From positions 1-19,855 of the forward strand of contig JAJZQR010000077.1 in the NCBI GenBank assembly GCA_021806765.1: DNA of 19,855 bases, read 5' to 3'. The DNA comes from Chloroflexota bacterium. Its GTDB lineage: Bacteria > Chloroflexota > UBA6077. Positions 2,602 through 19,855 of this stretch are shown here, in pieces. Below the pieces are notes generated by a model. That model was given only the letters and a program-made list of their open reading frames with translations. It searched no databases and was not told the DNA's origin. The position numbers were made by a program, and so were the translations under genes. Numbering within the stretch: position 1 is the first letter of the stretch; each line of letters begins with the position of its first letter.

Positions 2602-3996
2602 TCAGCCCTCCCGTTTCTTGGCGCCGGACGGCGGGGAGGTCCGCTCCCGCACCCTGATCAGCTCGCCGTCCCAGCCCTGGTCCCCGAGAGGGAAGTGGTG
2701 GCGCTGGTAGACCTCGTGCCGGCTGAGGAGGTTGATCATGGGGTAGTAGAACAGCATCCGCCCCTCGGATAGGTTCACCCGGTCCGCACCGCGACGGATG
2801 ATGCTGGGAAGGGAGTAGAACGCATTGCGGGAGCCGTAGCAGCCGAGCTCCAGCTCCTCGGGGCTCATCTGTAGAGGGCGGAAGGGGACCTGGTTGAAGC
2901 TGTAGTCCTCGGCCATCCACCACCTCTCGTACAGCAGACGGCCCTCGGCCTCCAGGCGCCGGTAGAGCGGCGTGCCGGGGAAGGGGACCAGGTGGTTGAA
3001 GGCCGCCATGAAGAAACGATGATCCAGGGCGAACTTCACCGTGCGGGCGAAGCTCTCAGGGGTATCGTCGTCGTAGCCGAACACGAAGGTCGCATAGATC
3101 CTGATCCCGTAGCGGCGAAGGTTGGCGAGGGCCTCCTCGAAGTCGGGCCGCACGGCGTTGACGGTCTTGTTCATCTTCTGCAGGGTCTCGGGGTTCAGCG
3201 ACTCGAAGCCGATGAGGAGACCCATACAGCCGCTCAACCTCAGCAGCTCCAGGAACTCCTCGTCGTAGGCGGCGTTCAGGCTGCCCTGGCTGACCCAGCG
3301 GATCTTCAGCGGGATGAGGGCTCGGAGGAACTCCTTGGCCTGGGCCATGTTGCCCGTGATGTTGTCGTCGACGAAGAAGACCAGGGGAGAGTTCTTCAGG
3401 GTCAGCAGCTCGGTCACGACGTCGTCGATAGGGCGGCTCGCGTAGCTGTGATCGTAGGCGCTCTGGACCGAGCAGAAGTCGCACTGGAACTGGCATCCCC
3501 TCCCCCGCTCGACCATGGCGAGCGGGAGATAGTCCTTGCCCCCGAAGATGCGGCGGTCGGGCACGAACCCCGAGAGATCCGGCCGCGCCGGGGCGCGGTA
3601 GTAGGTTTGGAGGGTTCCCCGCTCGGCATCCCGGAGGACAGTCTCCCACAGCTCCTCCGCCTGGCCGATCACGACGGATTCGGCGTACTGGGCGACGTCC
3701 TCGGGGCAGAGGGTCGCGTGGATGCCTCCCATCACCACCGGGACCCCGCGCTTTCGGTACTCGCTGGCGATCTGGTAGGCGCGCTTCGCGGTGTAAGCCT
3801 CGACGGTCATGGCCACCAGGTCGGTGGGCTCGTCAAAGGGGATCGGCTCCATGGAGTCGTTGTAGAAGGCGACCTGGACTCCCTCGGGGGTGAGACCCGC
3901 GAGGTGGGCGGGGGTGAGGGGCGCCATCTGCCAGGTGCGGATGTATGGCTGGCCGACCCGCCGGCCGATGCAGGGGTGGACCAGGGTGACTTTCAT
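2602..3996 (-). CDS. Cobalamin-binding-domain radical SAM protein (second of a tandem pair)
   Basis: 464 aa from the ATG at 3996, which has an AAGGA Shine-Dalgarno about 11 nt upstream. A longer open frame reaching 4551 only overlaps the neighbouring gene out of frame and was not used. Residues 1 to about 125 form a B12-binding-type Rossmann domain (MKVTLVHPC at the start, GGIHATLCPED near 90-100). There is no DxHxxG motif, as is common in BchE-like members. The radical SAM core follows, with cluster cysteines C168, C172 and C175 in GCQFQCDFC, then VFFVDDNITGN and LLIGFESLNPETL, which are typical of class B enzymes. The C-terminal 60-70 residues fit the family's usual tail. Such enzymes methylate unactivated carbons or make ring or C-C changes. 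The substrate is unknown. It starts 2 nt after the stop of its paralogue. Confidence 0.9.
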   Translation of the reverse strand: MKVTLVHPCIGRRVGQPYIRTWQMAPLTPAHLAGLTPEGVQVAFYNDSMEPIPFDEPTDLVAMTVEAYTAKRAYQIASEYRKRGVPVVMGGIHATLCPEDVAQYAESVVIGQAEELWETVLRDAERGTLQTYYRAPARPDLSGFVPDRRIFGGKDYLPLAMVERGRGCQFQCDFCSVQSAYDHSYASRPIDDVVTELLTLKNSPLVFFVDDNITGNMAQAKEFLRALIPLKIRWVSQGSLNAAYDEEFLELLRLSGCMGLLIGFESLNPETLQKMNKTVNAVRPDFEEALANLRRYGIRIYATFVFGYDDDTPESFARTVKFALDHRFFMAAFNHLVPFPGTPLYRRLEAEGRLLYERWWMAEDYSFNQVPFRPLQMSPEELELGCYGSRNAFYSLPSIIRRGADRVNLSEGRMLFYYPMINLLSRHEVYQRHHFPLGDQGWDGELIRVRERTSPPSGAKKREG

Positions 3997-3998
3997 CG

Positions 3999-5330
3999 CT
4001 AGCCGTCCTTCCCCAGGCTCATGATCCAATCGCAGTTGTAGAAGTCCTGGAGGTGATTGGCGTAGAAGCGGTATCCCAGGTTGGCGACCACCCAGACGGG
4101 GGCCTGGATGCGGGAGGCGGCGAATCTCCTGGCCATGGACGGCACGGAGTAGCTGTACTTCCAGGCCCTCTCGTGGCCCTCGTACAGCTCCCGGACGCTC
4201 ATCTGAGCGGGCCGGAAGACGACGTGCTGGGCGTCGTAGAGTTCCCAGTTCTTCGTGAGCAGCCTCCCCTCGGCCTCGAGCCGCTTGTAGAAGGGGGTGT
4301 TGGGGAAGGGCGTCACGATGGCATAGCGGGGGAGATCGATGCCGGCAGAGACGGTGAACCTGGCCGTCTCCATGAAGACGTCGGGGGTGTCGGAGTCCAG
4401 GCCGAAGGTGAAGCATGCCTGGAGGGTGATCCCGTGGCGGTGCAGCTGCGCCACCACCTCCCGGTACTGGTCCGGGGTGTTGAAGCCCTTGTGGGCCTGG
4501 CGAAGGTTGTCCGGCAGGATCGACTCGAAGCCCATGAGGACGCCGCGGCAACCGCTCCTGGCAGCCAGATCCAGGAGCGGCTTGTCTTGTACCAGGAGGG
4601 TCGTGGTGAGGCCGAACCAGTTGGTCTCGAGGGGGATCATGGCCTCGAAGAGCTCGGCGGCGTACTCCCTGTCGGAGATGAGGTTCAGGTCCACGAACAG
4701 GATGCGCTTCGAGTAGTGCTGACGGATGTCGGCGACGACGTCGGCCACCGGCTTCTTGTATGGCCGGCTGCCCCAGGCCGTGGGCGCGACGCAGAACTCG
4801 CAGTTGTGGACGCAGCTCCTGGTCGCCTCGAAGACGTGGGTCGTGATGTACGAACCCTTCTTCAGCATTTCCCGGCGCGGGAATGGAAGACCCGACAGGC
4901 TCAGGTTGGGTCCCTGGTCGTAGCGGGGCTTCAAGCGGCCGGCAGCGAAATCCCTCAGCATCTCGGGCCAGCTCTCCTCGGCGTAGCCCACAGCTATGGC
5001 GTCGGCGTGGGGCTGCGCGTCCTCGGGGATGAGGGTGACGTGGGGTCCTCCCAGGACGACCTTGATGCCCCGCGACCTGAAGTGGTCTGCCAGCTCGTAG
5101 GCCCTAACGGCGTTGCCCGTGATCACCGTCATTCCCACGAGGTCAGCCTGGAGGTTCGTGTCCAGGACCTCGATGCCCTCGTCGACGATCTCCACATCGG
5201 CTCCGAGCTCGGGAGGTACGTAGGCCGCCAGGGTGGTCAGGGTCAGCGGGCCGTAGCGGAGGTTCTTCTTGAAGATCCCCCCGCGGTGACGGTATAGAGG
5301 GCCCTTCGGAGAAACGAGGACGATTCTCAG
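3999..5330 (-). CDS. Cobalamin-binding-domain radical SAM protein (first of the tandem pair), apparent CTG start
   Basis: The frame encodes a second B12-type radical SAM enzyme paralogous to the next gene. The cluster motif is C173-C177-C180 (SCVHNCEFC), followed by ILFVDLNLISD and GVLMGFESILPDNL. The first ATG/GTG/TTG in frame is the GTG at 5195, but starting there would remove the conserved first strand and loop of the B12-binding domain. In-frame sequence upstream reads R-I-V-L-V-S-P-K-G and on through LRYGPLTLTTLAAYVP, and is clearly coding. The only plausible start for it is CTG (5330-5328), which has GAGGTG 5 nt upstream and an in-frame TGA just above. That gives 443 aa. A single-base error in or near the start is the alternative. 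The gene sits 72 nt below the DapA-like gene and heads the radical SAM pair. Confidence 0.85.
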   Translation of the reverse strand: MRIVLVSPKGPLYRHRGGIFKKNLRYGPLTLTTLAAYVPPELGADVEIVDEGIEVLDTNLQADLVGMTVITGNAVRAYELADHFRSRGIKVVLGGPHVTLIPEDAQPHADAIAVGYAEESWPEMLRDFAAGRLKPRYDQGPNLSLSGLPFPRREMLKKGSYITTHVFEATRSCVHNCEFCVAPTAWGSRPYKKPVADVVADIRQHYSKRILFVDLNLISDREYAAELFEAMIPLETNWFGLTTTLLVQDKPLLDLAARSGCRGVLMGFESILPDNLRQAHKGFNTPDQYREVVAQLHRHGITLQACFTFGLDSDTPDVFMETARFTVSAGIDLPRYAIVTPFPNTPFYKRLEAEGRLLTKNWELYDAQHVVFRPAQMSVRELYEGHERAWKYSYSVPSMARRFAASRIQAPVWVVANLGYRFYANHLQDFYNCDWIMSLGKDG

Positions 5331-5353
5331 GGCAACACCTCACACAGGATCAT
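5327..5353 (-). other. 8-codon mini-ORF overlapping the CTG start of the radical SAM gene
   Basis: ATG (5353-5351) with GGGAG 5 nt upstream opens the frame MILCEVLP, which ends at TGA (5329-5327). The stop overlaps the proposed CTG start of the radical SAM gene in the sequence CTGA. It may be a leader peptide whose termination helps initiation at CTG, or the true start of the large gene if one base has been gained or lost here. Confidence 0.3.
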
Positions 5354-5402
5354 GGAGTCTCCCGGAAGTATGGAGAGGGATGAAGCCGCAGCCCTCTATC
5401 GC

Positions 5403-6287
5403 CTACAGTAGCCCCAACTCCACGAGGGTGCGGCGGATCTCCTCCGCCTCCTCCGAGGTCGGCGGCTGGAGGGGCCTGCGGGCCAGTCCAGCCGGCCGCC
5501 CGATCATCGCCAGGGCCGCCTTCAAAGGTGCCGGGTGGTTGGTGGTGTACCAGGAGCGGATCATCGGAAGCAGGCGGTTCTGCAGATCGCTGGCCCGTCG
5601 CGGGTCCCCCGAGGTGGCCTCCCTATAGATCTCCACCAGGGTCTCGGGGACCAGATTGGCCGCGGCCAGGATGCCTCCCACAGCCCCCATCATGAGCGAC
5701 TCGAAGAACATGTCGTCGTCGCCGTAGAGGATATCGAACCCCTCGGGCGCCTCCTGCACCTTCTGCGCCATCTGCGCCAGATCGCGGGTGCACTCTTTGA
5801 GGGCAACGAGGCCCGGCAGGGGGTAAAGGCGGCGCATAATAGCCGGGGTCAGGTCGAGCCCCGTCCGAGCCGGGTTGTTGTACACCACAACCGGCAGTCC
5901 CGACTCGGCAGCCACGGCTTGGAAATACTGAGCCACGCCGTCGATGGATGGGCGAATGAAGTAGGGGGGGACCACCAGGGCCGCGTCGGCACCCACTTCC
6001 TTATAGGCGCGCGCCAGAGCGACGGCCTGCCCAGTGCTGGAGTGGAACACTCCAGCCATTATGGGGACACGCTTGCCCACCTGCTCCACCGCCACGGCCA
6101 CCACGCGAACCCGCTCCTCATCCGTCAGGTTGGTGAACTCTCCGCAGTTCCCCGCGATCAGGAAACCGCTAACCCTCGCCGCCAACTGTCTATCGATCAA
6201 TCGGCGTAGACAGCCCTCATCTACGCCGCCCTTTTCGTCGAAGGGCGTGACCTGCGATGCGATAACCCCTTCAAAATGGTGCCCCAC
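5403..6287 (-). CDS. DapA/N-acetylneuraminate-lyase superfamily protein, TPP-riboswitch controlled
   Basis: 294 aa from the GTG at 6287, which is preceded by GGAGGAGG with 8 nt spacing; ATG codons further upstream have no comparable ribosome site. It is a class I aldolase TIM barrel. The Schiff-base lysine lies in LVALKECTRDL, the catalytic tyrosine in VVVYNNPARTG, and the length is the family norm. The loop that reads GTTGE in true dihydrodipicolinate synthases is GNCGEF here, which removes both Thr residues of the proton relay. A 4-hydroxy-tetrahydrodipicolinate synthase assignment is therefore doubtful. Other members cleave or condense 2-oxo acids such as pyruvate. It is the first gene after the TPP riboswitch and attenuator hairpin, and probably the first of the operon. 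The reaction is not predictable from sequence alone. Confidence 0.85.
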   Translation of the reverse strand: MGHHFEGVIASQVTPFDEKGGVDEGCLRRLIDRQLAARVSGFLIAGNCGEFTNLTDEERVRVVAVAVEQVGKRVPIMAGVFHSSTGQAVALARAYKEVGADAALVVPPYFIRPSIDGVAQYFQAVAAESGLPVVVYNNPARTGLDLTPAIMRRLYPLPGLVALKECTRDLAQMAQKVQEAPEGFDILYGDDDMFFESLMMGAVGGILAAANLVPETLVEIYREATSGDPRRASDLQNRLLPMIRSWYTTNHPAPLKAALAMIGRPAGLARRPLQPPTSEEAEEIRRTLVELGLL

Positions 6288-6364
6288 GTGATGATCCTCC
6301 TCCATACGCATATGCAGTCCGTGCGAGTCTCCCCAAGCTAAGGGGGACACCCGCAGAAACAGCA

Positions 6365-6393
6365 GCGGCCGCCCTCTGGGGGAGGGCGGCCGC
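6365..6393 (-). terminator. Attenuator-like hairpin between riboswitch and first gene
   Basis: A perfect 12-bp inverted repeat (gcggccgccctc / gagggcggccgc) with a 5-nt loop lies 22 nt downstream of the TPP aptamer. On the minus strand it is followed by TGCTGTTTCTG, a weak U-rich run. Its position fits the expression platform of a transcription-terminating riboswitch. The poor U-tract leaves open Rho-assisted or translational control instead. Confidence 0.6.
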
Positions 6394-6415
6394 AACACAG
6401 CTTTTCCTTCGCGCT

Positions 6416-6500
6416 CAGCTTCCCTACGCTGGTATTACCCAGTTCAGGTACAGAGGGTTGGTGGCACCGCCACCTCTCAGCAGCTACGCTCCCCTAGCCG
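6416..6500 (-). promoter_or_regulatory. TPP (thiamine pyrophosphate) riboswitch aptamer, THI element
   Basis: Read on the minus strand, the element shows every conserved block of the THI aptamer in order. P1 forms between CGGCT (6500-6496) and AGCTG (6420-6416) as five pairs with one G-U. Next come AGGGGAGC, then GCTGAGAGG, a P3 hairpin GGTGGC-GGT-GCCACC, then ACCCTC, TACCTGA, the P4/P5 block CTGGGTAATACCAG, and CGTAGGGA. This matches the E. coli thiM-type consensus (CUGAGA, ACCUGA, CUGG-AUAAUGCCAG, CGUAGGGA) closely. It binds TPP and normally represses thiamine synthesis or uptake genes. The gene it precedes here is a DapA-like aldolase, followed by radical SAM genes. Confidence 0.95.
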
Positions 6501-6524
6501 TTGTCCCATTCGGTTGACGTGGTC

Positions 6525-6553
6525 AGGGTAGCACGGGCTGACGCTCAATTCAA
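6525..6553 (-). promoter_or_regulatory. Sigma-70-like promoter of the riboswitch operon
   Basis: On the minus strand a TTGAAT -35 box (6553-6548) and a TACCCT -10 box (6530-6525) are separated by exactly 17 nt. Transcription would begin about 18 nt before the 5' edge of the TPP aptamer. The position is right for the riboswitch leader; the -10 box is a weak match. Confidence 0.5.
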
Positions 6554-6730
6554 GCGATCCCGCGAACGTCAGGTCGGCAGGTCGCGGGAGCCAGCGTGTC
6601 GCCGACCCACACACAATCCACGCGCTGGTCGAACAGGAACAGAGGCTTCCTCAGGCGATCAGCAGCAGGCCCCGTTGCTCGATCTCAAACAGATTGTTCG
6701 GAGCAACAAGCCCTGCAACTCTACATCTCC
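6554..6730. other. Non-coding gap with two inverted repeats
   Basis: No gene was found between the riboswitch promoter and the end of the DUF262 gene. It holds an 8-bp inverted repeat TCCCGCGA/TCGCGGGA (6558-6589, 16-nt loop) just upstream of the -35 box, and a 7-bp repeat GTTGCTC/GAGCAAC (6674-6707, 20-nt loop) just after the DUF262 stop. The second may end DUF262 transcription. The first could be an operator or a terminator. Neither has a T-run. Confidence 0.4.
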
Positions 6731-8818
6731 TCATTCACCCTCGTCTTCTGAGTGCCTCTCAAAGGACTGTCGGATCAGATCCATCACGTCGTCCAGTTGA
6801 GCCAACGACGAAAGGCTGACCTGCACATCCCCGTTCCCCCAGACCCCGACGCCGGTGACGTCTTTGCACAACTTCTTTGGATCATTGATCTCGTCGAACC
6901 GCATGTTGAGGGTGAGGAGGAGTGCTTTCTTCTGGGGCGCCACATCGACGAAGTTGGTGGTCGTCTTGTAAGCGATGTAGACCTTCTTGATCTCCTCCCG
7001 AACGGAGGCGTCCAGGTTCAGGATGCGGGTCCTGATATGCTCGAAGAGCGAGAGCATCTCGCCCTGCAGTCCGGGGTGGTCCGCCAGGGTGTACTTCCCG
7101 TTTGCCTGCGGTTCCACGGTCTTGCGGTAGCCGTCCAGGGTAGCGACCGGCAGCTTGGGGGCCGCCCAGACCTTCAGGGCGATACTCGCCAAGGTGGCCG
7201 CTCGGCGCCTGATCGCATCTTCGTTCCAATGGTGCAGCTGAGCCAGGCTCTCATTTAGCTGGAGCGGGCTGTGGACAAAGCCGCCAGGTATAGTGCGTTT
7301 CTCCTCGAACGGACGGTCGCTCAGCTGAGAGTTGTAGCCGGTGAGGGTGAGGTTGCCGAGGGTGTGCAGGTACCTGGCTTGCAGCTCTTCCCAGTTGGGG
7401 CCAAGTTCACGCTGCCACTCCGGGGACAGGTTCGGGTTCTGGGGCATCACATGCTCGATGGTGTAGTTCTCAACTACCACCTTCTCTTTCCGCCCGTAGT
7501 TCTCCAGCTTTCGGAGCAGGTAGTTGCGGGTGCGGAAGTTATATACGTCCTTCACGACCAGCTCTGCCGCAAACTCGTCGTCGGGTGGGAAACGACGGTA
7601 GGAGTCCTTCAGAAGGAAGGCAGCCTTGACGCTCTCTAGGTAGTTACCCCTATCCACCTCGCGAGCCAAGCCTGCAAAGGTCTTGTTCAGCGTGTTGGTG
7701 GGAATGCCGCAGATGGACCGTCTGAAGATGTAGCTCTCGACTAGTCGTAGGATCTCAAGGAGATCCTCACGAGTGACGTGGCCCTGGGCGTAGTCGTCCA
7801 GAAGTTCGAGCATGAAAGGGTAGGCGACGTTGACGCGCAGGGCGTTGATGTCGCCGAAGATCTCCTTCAGAACTTTGTCCTTCGAGCGTTCAAAGGCGAA
7901 CTGCACATAGTAGGTAGCGTAGCGGTGGATATCCGCGACGATCTCTTTGATGGGTGAACTGCTATCCTGGACGTAGGCTTTGAAGGCAGGGTAAACGTCG
8001 TTGATGTTGGGGATGCGACCGGTCTTCACCGTCAAGTAATCGCGCATGAAGCCGTCGAAAGCCTCGGGGTGCTGGGTGTCGGTGAGGGCTACCTCCATCG
8101 GGTGCCAGTAGAGGTTGTAGACCTCCTCCTGGTCTTTGACCTCTAGCCCCATCAGGACGTAGTTCCTGATGAGATCGGACTGAGACAGGTCCAGTCCGGT
8201 GGAGTTCAGACTCTCGAAGATCAACTGCGGGTTGTCATACCGCCCATCCAGGGCTACGTCCACTATCACCAGCTTGGCCAACCCATTGTAGAGGGCATCA
8301 TGGTCCATCGTTGCGTTGGCGATCCTCTCCACGAAGAACTGGTAGTTCTCGACCACTCGTGGCGATGCGCTCGATGGCAACGGCTGGTCCTCGACCAGCC
8401 GAGACAGAACCTCTCGATCGCTCTGGGTAAGGACCAGCTTGTAGCGGAGATCACCCTTGCCGTGCCGGTTCGTCAAGTAGAGATCCTGGATCTCGTCTCC
8501 CGAGACCTCGGCCGATCCGCGGTTGGCTTCAATGGCCTTGCCGAGAGCGGCGAGGAGCAACGAGACGGTGGTGAGGCGCTGTTGGCCATCGATCACCAGG
8601 TATTGCGGCAGCGTGGCGCTGGTAGGACCTTGGGTGATGTAGACGATGGAGCCGATGAAGTGGCCGAAGACCGCGTCATCTCTCGCTGCCTTCAAGATGT
8701 CGGACCACAGCTGGCTGCACTGTTTGATAGTCCAGCTGTAGGGGCGCTGGTAGATCGGGATGACGAACTGCTTGTTGCCAGACATGAAGGGCAGCAAAGA
8801 GGCTTCGACGGCTTTCAT
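6731..8818 (-). CDS. DUF262/DUF1524 GmrSD-like nuclease with DUF5655-like tail
   Basis: 695 aa from the ATG at 8818, with GGAG 9 nt upstream. The N-terminal DUF262 (ParB/sulfiredoxin-like, NTP-binding) domain shows IPIYQRPYSW near residues 20-29 and the diagnostic IDGQQR at 76-81. The C-terminal half carries a DUF1524 HNH nuclease: YTIEHVMPQN with H456, then LGNLTLTGYNSQLS. The last 110 residues (from about DHPGLQGEMLSLFEHI to VSLSSLAQLDDVMDLI) resemble DUF5655. In GmrSD-type systems the two domains together cut modified phage DNA, and related DUF262 proteins occur with other defence modules. It is transcribed from a promoter at 9014-9041 through the remains of an hsdM gene, and lies next to a RES/Xre toxin-antitoxin pair. 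The exact target is not readable. All key motif residues are present, so it is probably active. Confidence 0.9.
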   Translation of the reverse strand: MKAVEASLLPFMSGNKQFVIPIYQRPYSWTIKQCSQLWSDILKAARDDAVFGHFIGSIVYITQGPTSATLPQYLVIDGQQRLTTVSLLLAALGKAIEANRGSAEVSGDEIQDLYLTNRHGKGDLRYKLVLTQSDREVLSRLVEDQPLPSSASPRVVENYQFFVERIANATMDHDALYNGLAKLVIVDVALDGRYDNPQLIFESLNSTGLDLSQSDLIRNYVLMGLEVKDQEEVYNLYWHPMEVALTDTQHPEAFDGFMRDYLTVKTGRIPNINDVYPAFKAYVQDSSSPIKEIVADIHRYATYYVQFAFERSKDKVLKEIFGDINALRVNVAYPFMLELLDDYAQGHVTREDLLEILRLVESYIFRRSICGIPTNTLNKTFAGLAREVDRGNYLESVKAAFLLKDSYRRFPPDDEFAAELVVKDVYNFRTRNYLLRKLENYGRKEKVVVENYTIEHVMPQNPNLSPEWQRELGPNWEELQARYLHTLGNLTLTGYNSQLSDRPFEEKRTIPGGFVHSPLQLNESLAQLHHWNEDAIRRRAATLASIALKVWAAPKLPVATLDGYRKTVEPQANGKYTLADHPGLQGEMLSLFEHIRTRILNLDASVREEIKKVYIAYKTTTNFVDVAPQKKALLLTLNMRFDEINDPKKLCKDVTGVGVWGNGDVQVSLSSLAQLDDVMDLIRQSFERHSEDEGE

Positions 8819-8822
8819 GCGG

Positions 8823-8919
8823 TCACTCCAACAAGTTCAGATTCGGTGAGTTGGCCCTCAATTCGTCGGCGGCGTCCCAGAGCCGCTTCTCAACTTCGTT
8901 GTGGTTGCTGGGTATTCAT
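8823..8919 (-). pseudogene. Frameshifted, truncated start of a type I restriction methylase (hsdM)
   Basis: On the minus strand, ATG (8919-8917) has GAGGT just upstream and reads MNTQQ, then runs out of frame to a stop. One frame over, codons from about 8903 read HNEVEKRLWDAADELRANS, the hallmark N-terminus of HsdM N6-adenine methylases. Removing one C near 8904 would join the two as MNTQQHNEVEKRLW. After RANS the homology ends and the frame stops at TGA (8825-8823), 4 nt before the DUF262 ATG. Only the first 25-30 codons of a gene of about 500 codons remain. It looks like a deletion scar in which a DUF262 gene took over the promoter of an old type I restriction operon. Confidence 0.7.
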
Positions 8920-9013
8920 GAGACCTCATTGGGATCGGTTCGCGGGTTCGGAGAACTGGCCGGACAGGCGAGGAGAGGCCGTGTGCAACTACATGGGTCG
9001 TGTTGTGTGGCTC

Positions 9014-9041
9014 AGTATAGTGCGGCAACGGTAGAAGTCAA
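9014..9041 (-). promoter_or_regulatory. Promoter reading into hsdM remnant and DUF262 gene
   Basis: On the minus strand TTGACT (9041-9036) and TATACT (9019-9014) are 16 nt apart, a near-consensus sigma-70 promoter. Transcription would start near 9007, about 90 nt before the hsdM-remnant ATG and 190 nt before the DUF262 start. The stretch between this promoter and the remnant (8920-9013) shows no gene. Confidence 0.6.
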
Positions 9042-9160
9042 CGACGAGGCGCGTGTACAAGCCTGCACAGCGCTAAGGGATACCGGTGGGCACCTCTAGT
9101 CGACAGATCAGCGCGTTCGTCCCCGTCCCGATCTTGGCGGGCACGACAGCTGCAGAGGGA

Positions 9161-9188
9161 TTAGCGCGTCCTAACGCCGTGATATAAT
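9161..9188 (+). promoter_or_regulatory. Promoter of the Xre/RES toxin-antitoxin operon, with possible operator
   Basis: A perfect TATAAT -10 box at 9183-9188 lies 20 nt before the antitoxin ATG, giving a very short leader. The -35 position holds only TTAGCG (9161-9166, 16-nt spacing). An inverted repeat TTAG-N6-CTAA (9161-9174) overlaps it and could be the site for autoregulation by the antitoxin, as usual for such pairs. The upstream stretch 9042-9160 shows nothing recognisable. Confidence 0.5.
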
Positions 9189-9207
9189 GTGAGCGGAGGT
9201 GCGGATC

Positions 9208-9786
9208 ATGGCAATCTCGACGCGGGCTCTGGAACGTCTCGGCATCCACGAGCAACCTGAGGAAATCGAGAAGCTGGTCTTGGAGGCGATGGAGCAAATG
9301 GTGTCCGGCCGGTATGCCCTGGACCCCAAGCAGGACCTCACCTCCGCCGAAAAGGACGCCCTCTCCCGAGGGGGGCTGGTGTTGGAAGAGATCGACCTGG
9401 GACGAGAGGATCCTCTGTTGCGGTCATCGACAGAGTATGCCGCGCTGGTGGCATCCAGCCTCACCGTCCATCAGGTGGCCGGGATGCTGGGTGTCGACGA
9501 CAGCCGCATCCGCCAGAGGCTGGCCAATCGAACGATTTACGGCATCAAGTTGCGGGCTGGCTGGCGTATGCCGCTCTTCCAGTTTGCCGAGGGCCATCTC
9601 CTGCCGGGCATCGAACCGGTTCTCCAGCAGCTTGCCGGCGACCTTCATCCCCTCGCGGTGCTCCACTGGTTCACTCAGCCGAACCCCGATCTGATTGTCA
9701 CCGACACGGCCGCGACAAGCCCGCGAGACTGGCTGCGTTCGGGACGAGATCCGCAAGTAGTCGCCGAATTGGCTTCCGAGCTGTAG
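9208..9786 (+). CDS. Xre/MbcA/ParS-type antitoxin (partner of RES toxin)
   Basis: 192 aa from the ATG at 9208, chosen over a GTG at 9199 because GGAGGTG lies 6 nt before it. The middle (SSLTVHQVAGMLGVDDSRIRQRLA followed by NRTIYGIKLRAGWRMPLFQF) is a helix-turn-helix plus wing, expected to bind the operon's own promoter. The C-terminal part (LHPLAVLHWFTQPNPDLI, then SPRDWLRSGRDPQVVAEL) fits the DUF2384 antitoxin domain, whose last helix blocks the toxin active site. The N-terminal 75 residues form a longer extension than usual. The RES toxin begins 6 nt after the stop, in the usual antitoxin-first order. Confidence in the pairing is high; the subfamily call rests on the C-terminal motif. Confidence 0.8.
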   Translation: MAISTRALERLGIHEQPEEIEKLVLEAMEQMVSGRYALDPKQDLTSAEKDALSRGGLVLEEIDLGREDPLLRSSTEYAALVASSLTVHQVAGMLGVDDSRIRQRLANRTIYGIKLRAGWRMPLFQFAEGHLLPGIEPVLQQLAGDLHPLAVLHWFTQPNPDLIVTDTAATSPRDWLRSGRDPQVVAELASEL

Positions 9787-9792
9787 ACCGAG

Positions 9793-10419
9793 ATGGCCAA
9801 GTTCCCAGAGCCGCCAGGCCGGGCGCAACTCCTCAGGATCGGCCCCCAGCTACGCGTTCTCCCTGTCGGTACCGAGTTGTGGCGCATCTACTTCCTGGGT
9901 GGCAATCACCCCGTGCGCTGGAATGGATTTCGCTTCTACGGGCCCCTGCCTTCTGCTCGTTTCGACCACCACCTGTCGCCGGCCCAACCTCAACAGCGGG
10001 GAATCCTCTACGCGGCGACCAGCATCGTCACCTGCCTGGCTGAGGTGTTCCAGGAGACCCACGTCGTGGACATTTCCAGCAGGGATCCCTGGCTGGCCGG
10101 CTTTGCCCTGACCGCTCCTGTGGTGCTCCACGACCTCACCGGGTCCTGGCCAACAGTTGCCGGTGCCTCCATGGCGGTCAATTCGGGACCTCGGGGAAGA
10201 GCACGCCGATGGTCCCAGGCTATCTACGACGCCTACGACCAGGTGCAGGGGCTCTGGTACTGCTCCTCTATGCACGCTAATCAGCCCGCCGTAGCCATCT
10301 ACGAGCGGGCTGAGGGAGCACTCCCTGCGGTTCCTCTCTTTCATCGGGCTCTGGCAGATCCGGTCCTTCTGAGTCCCCTGCGTACCGCCGCCCAGGTTCT
10401 GGGATACCGGTTGGTCTGA
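9793..10419 (+). CDS. RES-domain toxin (NAD+-targeting type)
   Basis: 208 aa beginning 6 nt after the antitoxin. The RES domain spans nearly the whole protein: R31 in LWRIYF, then RWNGFRFYGPLPSARFDHHL, Y73 in GILYAATSIVTCLAEVF with E84, and a Ser pair near 158-159 in LWYCSSMHAN. These are the R, E and S positions that name the family. Characterised RES toxins (MbcT, ParT) degrade or transfer NAD+ and arrest growth, and are held off by the adjacent Xre-type antitoxin. All signature residues are present, so the toxin looks intact. The start has only a weak ribosome site, consistent with translational coupling. Its placement beside a DUF262 nuclease suggests a defence role, which is inference. 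Confidence 0.88.
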   Translation: MAKFPEPPGRAQLLRIGPQLRVLPVGTELWRIYFLGGNHPVRWNGFRFYGPLPSARFDHHLSPAQPQQRGILYAATSIVTCLAEVFQETHVVDISSRDPWLAGFALTAPVVLHDLTGSWPTVAGASMAVNSGPRGRARRWSQAIYDAYDQVQGLWYCSSMHANQPAVAIYERAEGALPAVPLFHRALADPVLLSPLRTAAQVLGYRLV

Positions 10420-10631
10420 CTGCAGCGACCGGCCCCCTATCGCACCCCCGAGCCTGGAGTTGCACGAGGAGCGTGGAGCGACCTAGCACACGATCGTGTA
10501 GATCGCACCCGGTTGAACCGCAACATGGTAGCACGCCGGGTTGCCACTAACAACAACAGCTATGTCCCTTCGAACAGCTGCTGGCACCGCTTTCCCGGGG
10601 TCTAACCCAAGCCAGCACTGCGACTTTCTGC
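10420..10631. other. Intergenic gap with 12-bp palindrome
   Basis: No gene was found between the RES toxin and the glycosyltransferase. A perfect palindrome ACACGATCGTGT lies at 10488-10499 and could be a regulator site. No terminator with a T-run follows the toxin gene. Confidence 0.35.
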
Positions 10632-10637
10632 TACAAT
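10632..10637 (+). promoter_or_regulatory. -10 box giving a near-leaderless transcript
   Basis: TACAAT at 10632-10637 ends 8 nt before the GTG start of the glycosyltransferase. Transcription from it would begin at or next to the start codon. No convincing -35 box and no Shine-Dalgarno are seen upstream of the GTG. Confidence 0.45.
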
Positions 10638-10645
10638 CGACCACT

Positions 10646-11347
10646 GTGAAGACTATCATCGTGATCCCCACCTACAACGAGAGGGAGAACCTTCCGGAGT
10701 TGGTCCGGCGGCTAGAGCAGCTGGGCCTCGGTCTCCACGCCCTGGTGGTGGACGACAACTCCCCCGACGGCACCGGCGACCTGGCCGAGGAACTGGCCGG
10801 CACCCGCCCCTGGCTCCAGCTGCTCCACCGCCCCGGGAAAGCCGGGTTGGGCACCGCCTACCTGGAGGGCTTCCGCCTGGCCTTGGAGCGGGGCTACGAG
10901 GCGATGGGCGAGATGGACGCCGACCTCTCCCACAACCCCACCTACCTTCCGGCCATGATGAAAGCCCTGGAGGGGGCCGACCTGGTGCTGGGCTCCCGCT
11001 ACGTGCGTGGCGGGGGAGTGCGCAACTGGGGCGTGCTACGCCGGCTGATCAGCCGCGGAGGCAGCCTCTACTCTCAGATGGTGCTGGGTGTGGGGGTCCA
11101 CGACCTGACCGGCGGCTTCAAGCTGTTCCGTCGAGAGCTGCTGGAGAAGCTGGGGCTGGACACGGTCCGCTCCAATGGCTACTCCTTCCAGATAGAGATG
11201 ACCTACCGCGCCCTCAGACGCGGCTACCGGGTGGTGGAGGTGCCCATCATCTTCGAGGACCGGCAGGTCGGCAAGTCCAAGCTCTCCCGACAGGTGGTTC
11301 TCGAGGCCATGCTCATGGTCCCCCGGCTGCGCCTAGAGCGCCGATGA
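10646..11347 (+). CDS. Polyprenol-monophosphomannose synthase-like family 2 glycosyltransferase
   Basis: 233 aa from the GTG at 10646, where homology begins (KTIIVIPTYNERENL). The open frame extends upstream to 10541, but that part has no family character. It is a GT-A fold family 2 enzyme. VVDDNSPDGTGD near residues 34-46 binds the sugar nucleotide, D91-A-D93 in GEMDADLSHNP binds the metal, and the C-terminal FEDRQVGKSKLS motif is typical of Dpm1-like catalytic subunits. It has no membrane segments, as in the soluble short form. The expected reaction is transfer of mannose or a related sugar from a nucleotide donor to polyprenyl phosphate, giving a lipid-linked sugar for export and glycosylation. 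The downstream secreted peptidase, 31 nt away on the same strand, may be co-transcribed. Confidence 0.88.
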   Translation: MKTIIVIPTYNERENLPELVRRLEQLGLGLHALVVDDNSPDGTGDLAEELAGTRPWLQLLHRPGKAGLGTAYLEGFRLALERGYEAMGEMDADLSHNPTYLPAMMKALEGADLVLGSRYVRGGGVRNWGVLRRLISRGGSLYSQMVLGVGVHDLTGGFKLFRRELLEKLGLDTVRSNGYSFQIEMTYRALRRGYRVVEVPIIFEDRQVGKSKLSRQVVLEAMLMVPRLRLERR

Positions 11348-13547: not shown

Positions 13548-13575
13548 GTAGGGGCGACCGGCCGGTCGCCCCTAC
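13548..13575. repeat. 28-bp perfect palindrome between trxB and osmC
   Basis: A 14-bp arm GTAGGGGCGACCGG is followed directly by its exact reverse complement with no loop. It resembles the dispersed GTAGGGGCGA-type palindromic elements found between genes in several phyla. As RNA it would form a very stable hairpin, but no T-run follows. It may separate expression of trxB and osmC. Confidence 0.8.
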
Positions 13576-17994: not shown

Positions 17995-19855
17995 CTACTG
18001 CTCCAGTCGCCAGCCGTGCTCCCTTCCGTTCTTGCCCCAGTTGGAGGTTAGGGCCACCAGGTCGTAGAGGTCCACCAGACCGTCGTCGGTGAGGTCGGCA
18101 ACGGCGGCGTGGCCATCGGGGTCCTCCGGGCTCCGGAGGCCGAAGTGCTCCACCAGGAAGGCCAGGTCGGCCTCATCGACGGCATCGGCAGAAGCTTCGG
18201 TGTCTACCAGGTTCCCCGACAGCAGCTCCAGCCGCGGCAGGGTGAGGCTATCCCCATCCCCCACCGCTACCTCCCCATGGCTCGCCGTGAGATAGCCCCG
18301 GTGGGAGAGACTCACCTGGTAGACGCCGGGCGCCACCGCCAGGGCGAAGGCTCCCGTCGGGGCTGAGGTGGTGCGGTAGAGGCTGACCACCACGTCGACC
18401 CCGGAATGGTCCCCTCGGGCCTGCAGCTTCACCACCCCATCGATGTAGGTCGACGTAACGGGGGTGGCGACTGGAGTCCCCGTAGGAGTGGAGGTGGGAC
18501 TATCGGTGGGAGACGGGAGAGGGGTCACCGTCGGGGTACTGGTAGCCGTGGGAGTCGGTGCAGGATCCACTACGAAGCCATCGATTACCACATCGTACCC
18601 CCCAGAGTTCATCGCTCTGGACTCGCTCACTCTCACGGTCAGCAGGTGATCACCCGGCAACACAGGGTAGACCACCACCTGACGCCACGTCATGACTTCG
18701 GCGTAGAGAATCGCCTCGGGCTGATAGACCCCGTCCACGAAAACCTCCACCACCCCCTCATCCGGCCCGAAAGCCGTGACCAGCCCAACCTTCGAGCCAC
18801 GGAAAGGGAACTGAAGCTGGGCACCCTTCTGGTCGGAGCGATGGGCAGAGCCTCCCTCGGGTCCGGGCCCAACCCACACCGACCAGCCGGAAGAGTACTG
18901 GATCCTCGGGTCGTCGTCGCCGTATTGGCCGGCAACTGCGAGGCCGAGGGTAGGGGTGGAGCTACCCGTGGGCATGGCGGTCGGAGTCAGTGTTGGGCTC
19001 GGAGTCGGAGTGAAGGTCGGCGTTGCGGTATCGGCCGGCGTAACCGTTGGAGTAGGGTGTGGGGTCTCGCTGGGGGTCGGAGTGAGGCTGGCGGTGCCGG
19101 TCGGGGTTATCGTAAGCGTTGGGGTGCCGGTCGGGGTTATCGTAGGCGTGGGGGTGCCGGTCGGGGTTATCGTAAGCGTTGGGGTGCCGGTCGGGGTTAT
19201 CGTAGGCGTGGGGGTGCCGGTCGGGGTTATCGTAGGCGTTGGGGTCTCGGTCGGGGTGGACGTGGATGCAGGCGAGCTGGTGGGGGTGTGAGTGACTGTC
19301 TGCGTGGGGATCGAGGTAGCATCGTCGGGTGGCGTGGCAGCCGCCGTAGGAGTTGGACTCGGCGTCTCCGTTGGACTGGGGGTGGAAGTGGGAGTGGAGG
19401 TGCCGGTGGCGGTGGATGTCGCCGTCGATGTGGCGACGGGTGTAGCCGTAGGCGAGCTGGTGGGAGTTGGGGTGGTCGTAGGAGTTGCCGTCGGGATTGC
19501 GGTGGGGGAGGGCGTCGGGGTTGGTTGCTCCCAGGCAACCGTTCCCATGTAGATCTCAGTGCCCCCGCTCCTGGTATCGGCCCAAACGATGCGATCACCG
19601 AACACTCGCGGCTCCGAGCGGGTCCCAGTCCCCGTAGAGACTGGGAACAGGACCTGCCGGCTCAAGCTGTAACCATACAACTCGTAGAAACCGACGGTCT
19701 TCTGCTTCTGCCACACCACCAGATCCCCCTGCAGGGCGGGGTTAGCCAGCGTCCCCACCCCAGCCATTATGGGAAACTCGACACCGTCCGGGCCTCTCCC
19801 ATATAGACCGAAGCCGGAGCCACGACTATCCAGCCAGACCAGGGTCCAACCATCC
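17995..19855 (-). CDS. Large extracellular Pro/Thr-repeat protein with propeller, carbohydrate-binding-like and dockerin-like domains (N-terminus outside window)
   Basis: The frame is open from the stop at 17995 to the window's right edge, about 620 codons. An ATG at 19767 is internal, since upstream codons ([20 protein letters not shown]) continue the same domain. In order: the end of a TolB-like beta-propeller ([26 protein letters not shown]), a ~200-residue PTPTP linker with tandem repeats, a jelly-roll-like module ([20 protein letters not shown] to [13 protein letters not shown]) resembling carbohydrate-binding domains, a second short PT linker, a carboxypeptidase-regulatory-like beta domain ([20 protein letters not shown]), and a C-terminal dockerin-like EF-hand pair, clearest in [22 protein letters not shown]. 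This is a secreted or surface protein; linkers of this type probably carry O-glycans. Binding partner and ligand are unknown. Confidence 0.85.
19093..19242 (-). repeat. Five 30-bp tandem repeats coding for TPTGTPTxTI units
   Basis: Five exact-length 30-bp copies of ggtgccggtcggggttatcg plus ta(a/g)gcgt(t/g)gg run head to tail within the PT linker, followed by a degenerate copy at 19243. The variable bases alternate aagcgtt, aggcgtg, aagcgtt, aggcgtg, aggcgtt, so copies 1-2 and 3-4 form a 60-bp higher-order unit, a sign of recent duplication. Confidence 0.9.

Follow-up and report, generated by a model that had tools for sequence, protein, structure and literature searches.

A TPP riboswitch in the leader of a gene of the DapA superfamily

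A genuine TPP riboswitch, confirmed as an RF00059 aptamer, lies in the leader of a gene of the DapA superfamily in the window (the term we use for the whole 19,855-nt stretch of DNA analyzed here). The explanation that we favor, with a probability of roughly 0.55, is that the intact riboswitch forms the 5' leader of this gene and acts in cis to switch it OFF. Under such a scheme, binding of TPP would close the P1 stem of the aptamer, the 12-bp hairpin that follows would end transcription once P1 is closed, and the enzyme would mainly be made when TPP is scarce. We infer both the OFF direction and the control in cis. The tie to TPP might have its reason in an unrecognised thiamine-related step, or in an enzyme that needs no TPP and stands in for one that does. 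The features of the leader and the gene behind it are collected in Table 1.

Table 1. Elements of the leader and the downstream gene, with the basis of each assignment.
Feature	Position	Strand	Basis
Possible promoter (TTGAAT-17-TACCCT, TG before the second hexamer)	6553-6525	minus	7/12 plus extended -10
TPP riboswitch aptamer, RF00059	6505-6404	minus	Covariance model 1-105, full length, 71.8 bits
Terminator-like hairpin, presumed expression platform	6393-6365	minus	Perfect 12-bp stem, 5-nt loop
Ribosome-binding site GGAGGAGG	6303-6296	minus	Sequence; 8 nt before GTG
DapA-superfamily gene, 294 aa	6287-5403	minus	PF00701, TIGR00674

The score of the aptamer exceeds the gathering score of the RF00059 covariance model (71.8 versus 54.3 bits, E-value 1.2e-12). 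At gathering thresholds this is the sole Rfam match in the window, and RF00059 alone matches when the region 5000-7000 is searched with permissive filters up to an E-value of 1. The first-pass annotation had proposed a TPP aptamer with a P1 stem at 6416-6500, suggested a search with this model as a check and named the lack of a match as contrary evidence: the search returned a match, and P1, in which 6500-6496 pairs with 6420-6416, closes exactly the proposed span. The CTGAGA motif of the aptamer lies at 6480-6475. Because the score falls inside the range of the comparison RF00059 matches listed (56.8-85.4 bits), the aptamer is without visible decay; at least 71.8 bits are reached by 49 of the 57 best comparison matches listed. 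From the end of the aptamer to the GTG at 6287 there are 116 nt, on the same strand and with no annotated gene between. The aptamer would be expected to bind TPP.

Aptamer, hairpin, ribosome site and GTG follow one another continuously on one strand within 220 nt. The 12-bp hairpin previously described before the gene is present with a perfect stem, and its T tail is weak (TGCTGTTTCT). A terminator scan returned one such site, compared with a shuffle mean of 0.4, and the whole window has only three perfect stems of at least 11 bp with loops of 3-8, always in intergenic positions according to the map of open reading frames. The hairpin would be expected to terminate transcription, and the available text of a comparative study notes that transcription attenuation may be overrepresented among Chloroflexi riboswitches, on the basis of small samples (PMC2258182). 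Folding of the leader proposes an antiterminator pairing and a sequestration of the ribosome site. The pairing with the 5' arm of the hairpin was equalled in 391 of 1000 dinucleotide shuffles and in 285 of 1000 random segments of the window, and the pairing with the ribosome site in 176 of 500 shuffles. Since these alternative pairings are no better than those of shuffles, we infer the switching mechanism only from the riboswitch family.

The ribosome site, which had been called strong, was found 8 nt before the GTG and graded good. A promoter had also been claimed 25 nt upstream of P1, and a promoter-like site does end at that distance, but a scan with a 9-of-12 threshold found none at the leader. 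On both strands of the window, 43 sites reach at least 7/12, and two of them, including the one at the leader, carry the TG of an extended -10, a criterion that was chosen after the site had been seen. As the site is below the threshold, is one of the 43 that reach this score and stands out through a post hoc criterion, we consider it a plausible promoter. Transcripts might also read through from the gene upstream, which lies on the same strand and has its end at 6731.

The start of the DapA-superfamily gene was placed at GTG 6287 rather than at the mechanical start at 6398, and most of the database relatives listed share it. Its product matches PF00701 with 254.5 bits and TIGR00674, the NCBIfam dapA family, with 240.3 bits, above the curated cut-off of 206.15. 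The predicted structure (pLDDT 92.4) has DHDPS structures as its nearest folds (TM 0.95), so that profile and predicted fold both agree with the membership in the DapA superfamily assigned by the first-pass annotation. In the alignment with E. coli DapA, the protein keeps the equivalents of K161 (K164), R138 (R141) and Y133. At the positions of T44, T45, S48 and Y107 it has N, C, F and F, respectively. T44 and Y107, together with Y133, are the proton-relay residues of DHDPS. The list of nearest structures names the E. coli mutants T44S, Y107F, Y133F, R138A and K161A, and these positions have therefore already been studied. Most likely, then, we are dealing with a class I lyase or aldolase of the Schiff-base type, which would act on pyruvate or another 2-oxo acid.

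The closest relatives of this protein form a discrete clade. Searches by sequence and by profile, in which the candidates with the most shared words were scored (7997 and 7998, respectively), both returned 35 clusters at 69-80% identity, after which identity drops to 49%. A discrete clade of this size and identity indicates that many lineages have retained the gene; two of the 35 clusters carry organism names (Chloroflexota bacterium and Sphingomonadaceae bacterium). The motifs of the Schiff-base lysine and of the carboxylate arginine are present in all 35 members, and so are GNCGEF and PPYF, which place N and F at the equivalents of T44 and Y107. The T45 equivalent is likewise replaced in 35 out of 35 relatives. 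In the 85 matches that come next (P0036-P0120), GTTGES (39) and APYYN (32) are the forms seen most often. Because the equivalents of T44 and Y107 are replaced throughout the clade, 'dapA' is probably the wrong name, and judging from these residues the enzyme is probably not a true DapA/DHDPS. Several members of the clade (P0001-P0035) are named 4-hydroxy-tetrahydrodipicolinate synthase by their sources, and such dapA-type names are likely an annotation error. A single-protein scan of species-genome contigs of at least 3 kb, using short exact peptide patterns, found no relative. An alignment-based genome scan, again using exact peptide patterns and contigs of at least 3 kb, found five loci at 29-31% identity, in Caedibacter, Alphaproteobacteria or Rhodospirillales, and none of them in the clade. 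No clade member was found in the viral contigs scanned, and the N-terminal extensions of database relatives, checked for traces of a leader, yielded nothing usable.

To measure how unusual the pairing is, we relied on an RF00059 search of 200 genomes of one other phylum, taken as Pseudomonadota, 90 of which have a match. Seventy sites were inspected, composed of 30 among the best scores (a non-random choice) and the first 40 other sites listed. The DapA-family profile used on their downstream frames was built from 14 proteins and recovered all six controls, namely E. coli DapA plus five further members of the family that had not gone into the profile. None of the 70 sites has a DapA-family gene downstream (0 of 30 loci with 93 frames, 0 of 40 loci with 148 frames), in agreement with the earlier claim that the target is atypical for a TPP riboswitch, here measured in a different phylum. 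Since the comparison phylum is not the likely host phylum, this result is a base rate and not a test of conservation. At 34 of the 70 sites (18 of 30 and 16 of 40), thiC comes first downstream. In the remaining tallies, which do not assign every site, the foremost families are thiamine-precursor kinases, ThiB, ThiO and those of transport or TonB, and the NMT1 and TenA families are also among the other first downstream genes; in two of the 30 loci the chosen frame is shorter than 110 aa and may not be the true gene. According to the available text of a 255-genome survey, more than 65% of the TPP-regulated genes in most lineages belong to thiamin biosynthesis, while the share of transporters is 30% on average and exceeds one half in Chloroflexi (PMC3766115). 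The 13 window proteins that were scanned include no thiamine family, and no report of a TPP riboswitch paired with DapA was found in the open-licence literature, in which aldolase papers were judged by title and the start of the abstract.

Downstream of the DapA-superfamily gene, on the same strand, lie two B12-binding/radical SAM genes. The first lacks an in-frame ATG, GTG or TTG at the expected start, and a CTG is found at 5330, 72 nt past the stop of the DapA-superfamily gene. When its protein was searched, 6197 of the 7997 scored candidates matched at an E-value of at most 0.001; the named relatives among the 120 matches listed include Anaerolineales, Caldilineaceae, Chloroflexi and one Ignavibacteriae, which suggests that the host belongs to the Chloroflexota. 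Comparison of 119 listed radical SAM relatives with the 35 clusters of the DapA clade gave one coincidence of contig size (3276), in a test that left out the window's own row and is weak because each cluster is represented by its longest contig alone. With jittered sizes, at least one coincidence appeared in 32% of 2000 trials, and the match at 3276 is therefore no evidence of linkage. Among the 17 contigs of at least 4 kb in the DapA clade, not one coincides with a contig of the radical SAM relatives. The radical SAM genes that had been reported to follow are present as two genes on the same strand, but in this weak test the contig sharing between the listed relatives of the first and the DapA clade is not above chance, and we leave these genes, with those behind them, outside the regulated unit.

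Besides the two radical SAM genes, the minus-strand segment 1-5330 holds two proteins whose GNAT matches are very weak (E-values 0.017 and 0.099) and a truncated gene of the GH3 family. Upstream of the aptamer by 226 nt is a GmrSD-type gene (6731-8818, minus strand; PF03235, PF07510, DUF5655), whose best PADLOC match is Orf5 with 626.7 bits. On the plus strand at 9199-10419, a RES-domain protein (PF08808) follows a protein of 195 aa whose HTH matches are very weak, and the two could possibly form a toxin-antitoxin pair. GmrSD-type restriction genes and RES-domain genes are typical of variable regions. Between an OsmC-like and a thioredoxin-reductase-like gene, a hairpin with a perfect stem of 12 bp and a loop of 4 nt (13548-13575) has no clear T tail; instead of a terminator, it may represent a dispersed repeat. 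A long open frame on the minus strand (17995-19767) has a repetitive middle part rich in threonine and proline.

Several observations stand against the OFF-switch explanation: the weak T tail, the sub-threshold promoter, the shuffle-level antiterminator and the absence of like targets at the 70 comparison sites, as well as a protein that passes the curated dapA cut-off. The last of these would fit an ordinary DapA of the lysine pathway with a TPP riboswitch before it by chance, and so would the synthase names given by the sources and the DHDPS structures nearest to the predicted fold. This we regard as very improbable, given the replacement of T44, T45 and Y107 equivalents in all 35 clusters, a window with no lysine riboswitch and no other lysine gene among its 13 scanned proteins. 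A more serious rival is that a thiamine gene or transporter was lost by a recent rearrangement, that the dapA-like gene now stands behind its leader and that control by TPP is accidental. The lack of DapA-like targets at the comparison sites and the variable-region types of the restriction and RES-domain genes upstream are in keeping with this reading. However, the leader runs unbroken from the aptamer through the hairpin and ribosome site to the start and has no visible decay, no pair of repeats flanks it within 5200-11000, and the restriction gene, being on the upstream side of the riboswitch, does not separate it from the dapA-like gene. An intact aptamer, an unbroken leader and the lack of flanking repeats speak against an orphaned riboswitch, which we nevertheless keep as a live rival, at well below even odds.

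Two further readings concern what the enzyme might do. The lyase could carry out an unrecognised thiamine step, making or removing a thiamine precursor or analogue, with the riboswitch regulating it as usual. That comparison sites mostly precede thiamine genes, thiC in first place, argues for this, while the 13 scanned proteins of the window include no thiamine family and we know of no thiamine pathway step with Schiff-base lyase chemistry; we hold it to be rather doubtful. By analogy, a TPP-independent Schiff-base enzyme might instead replace a TPP-dependent 2-oxo-acid enzyme when TPP is scarce. The retained Schiff-base lysine is consistent with such a replacement, which has a precedent in the B12 riboswitch over the B12-independent metE (PMC11260477), and the available text of the survey describes thiamin-auxotrophic Chloroflexi with several TPP-regulated uptake systems (PMC3766115). 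The pairing was nonetheless seen once, and this sparing of the cofactor is improbable in our view. Equally improbable is the proposal that the circuit would serve uncultured, thiamine-dependent Chloroflexota through the Schiff-base lyase clade. A new step in thiamine metabolism, as suggested by the first-pass annotation, is one of three live readings, beside the sparing of TPP and the orphaning of the riboswitch, and the interpretation given there is partly supported.

TPP riboswitches have so far been reliable pointers to thiamine genes. If the pairing described here is stable, it would point either to a missing thiamine-related reaction or to a choice between TPP-dependent and TPP-free enzymes set by the level of TPP. 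The case also draws attention to a 35-cluster clade in which the equivalents of T44 and Y107 are replaced and several members bear the names of dapA products.

Compared with known systems, the element resembles other RF00059/THI elements in its full-length aptamer above the cut-off, in its place in the leader of a co-directional gene and in the terminator-like hairpin that follows, and differs from them in its target, which is a DapA-superfamily enzyme and not the usual gene of thiamine synthesis, salvage or transport. The enzyme has the fold, length, Schiff-base lysine and equivalents of Y133 and R138 of DHDPS/DapA; unlike DHDPS/DapA, it has N, C, F and F at T44, T45, S48 and Y107 and belongs to a clade of its own, beyond which identity falls from about 69 to 49%. 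The available text of the comparative study mentions a handful of high-scoring aptamers that are not upstream of ligand-related genes and offers recent orphaning as one explanation (PMC2258182). Our case is similar in that a high-scoring aptamer precedes a gene without a known link to the ligand, whereas it differs in its unbroken leader and in a target that falls in a defined enzyme clade. Finally, a B12 riboswitch controls metE, the B12-independent methionine synthase (PMC11260477). The possible logic of a cofactor sensor before a cofactor-free enzyme would be the same, except that for TPP it stands as a hypothesis alone.
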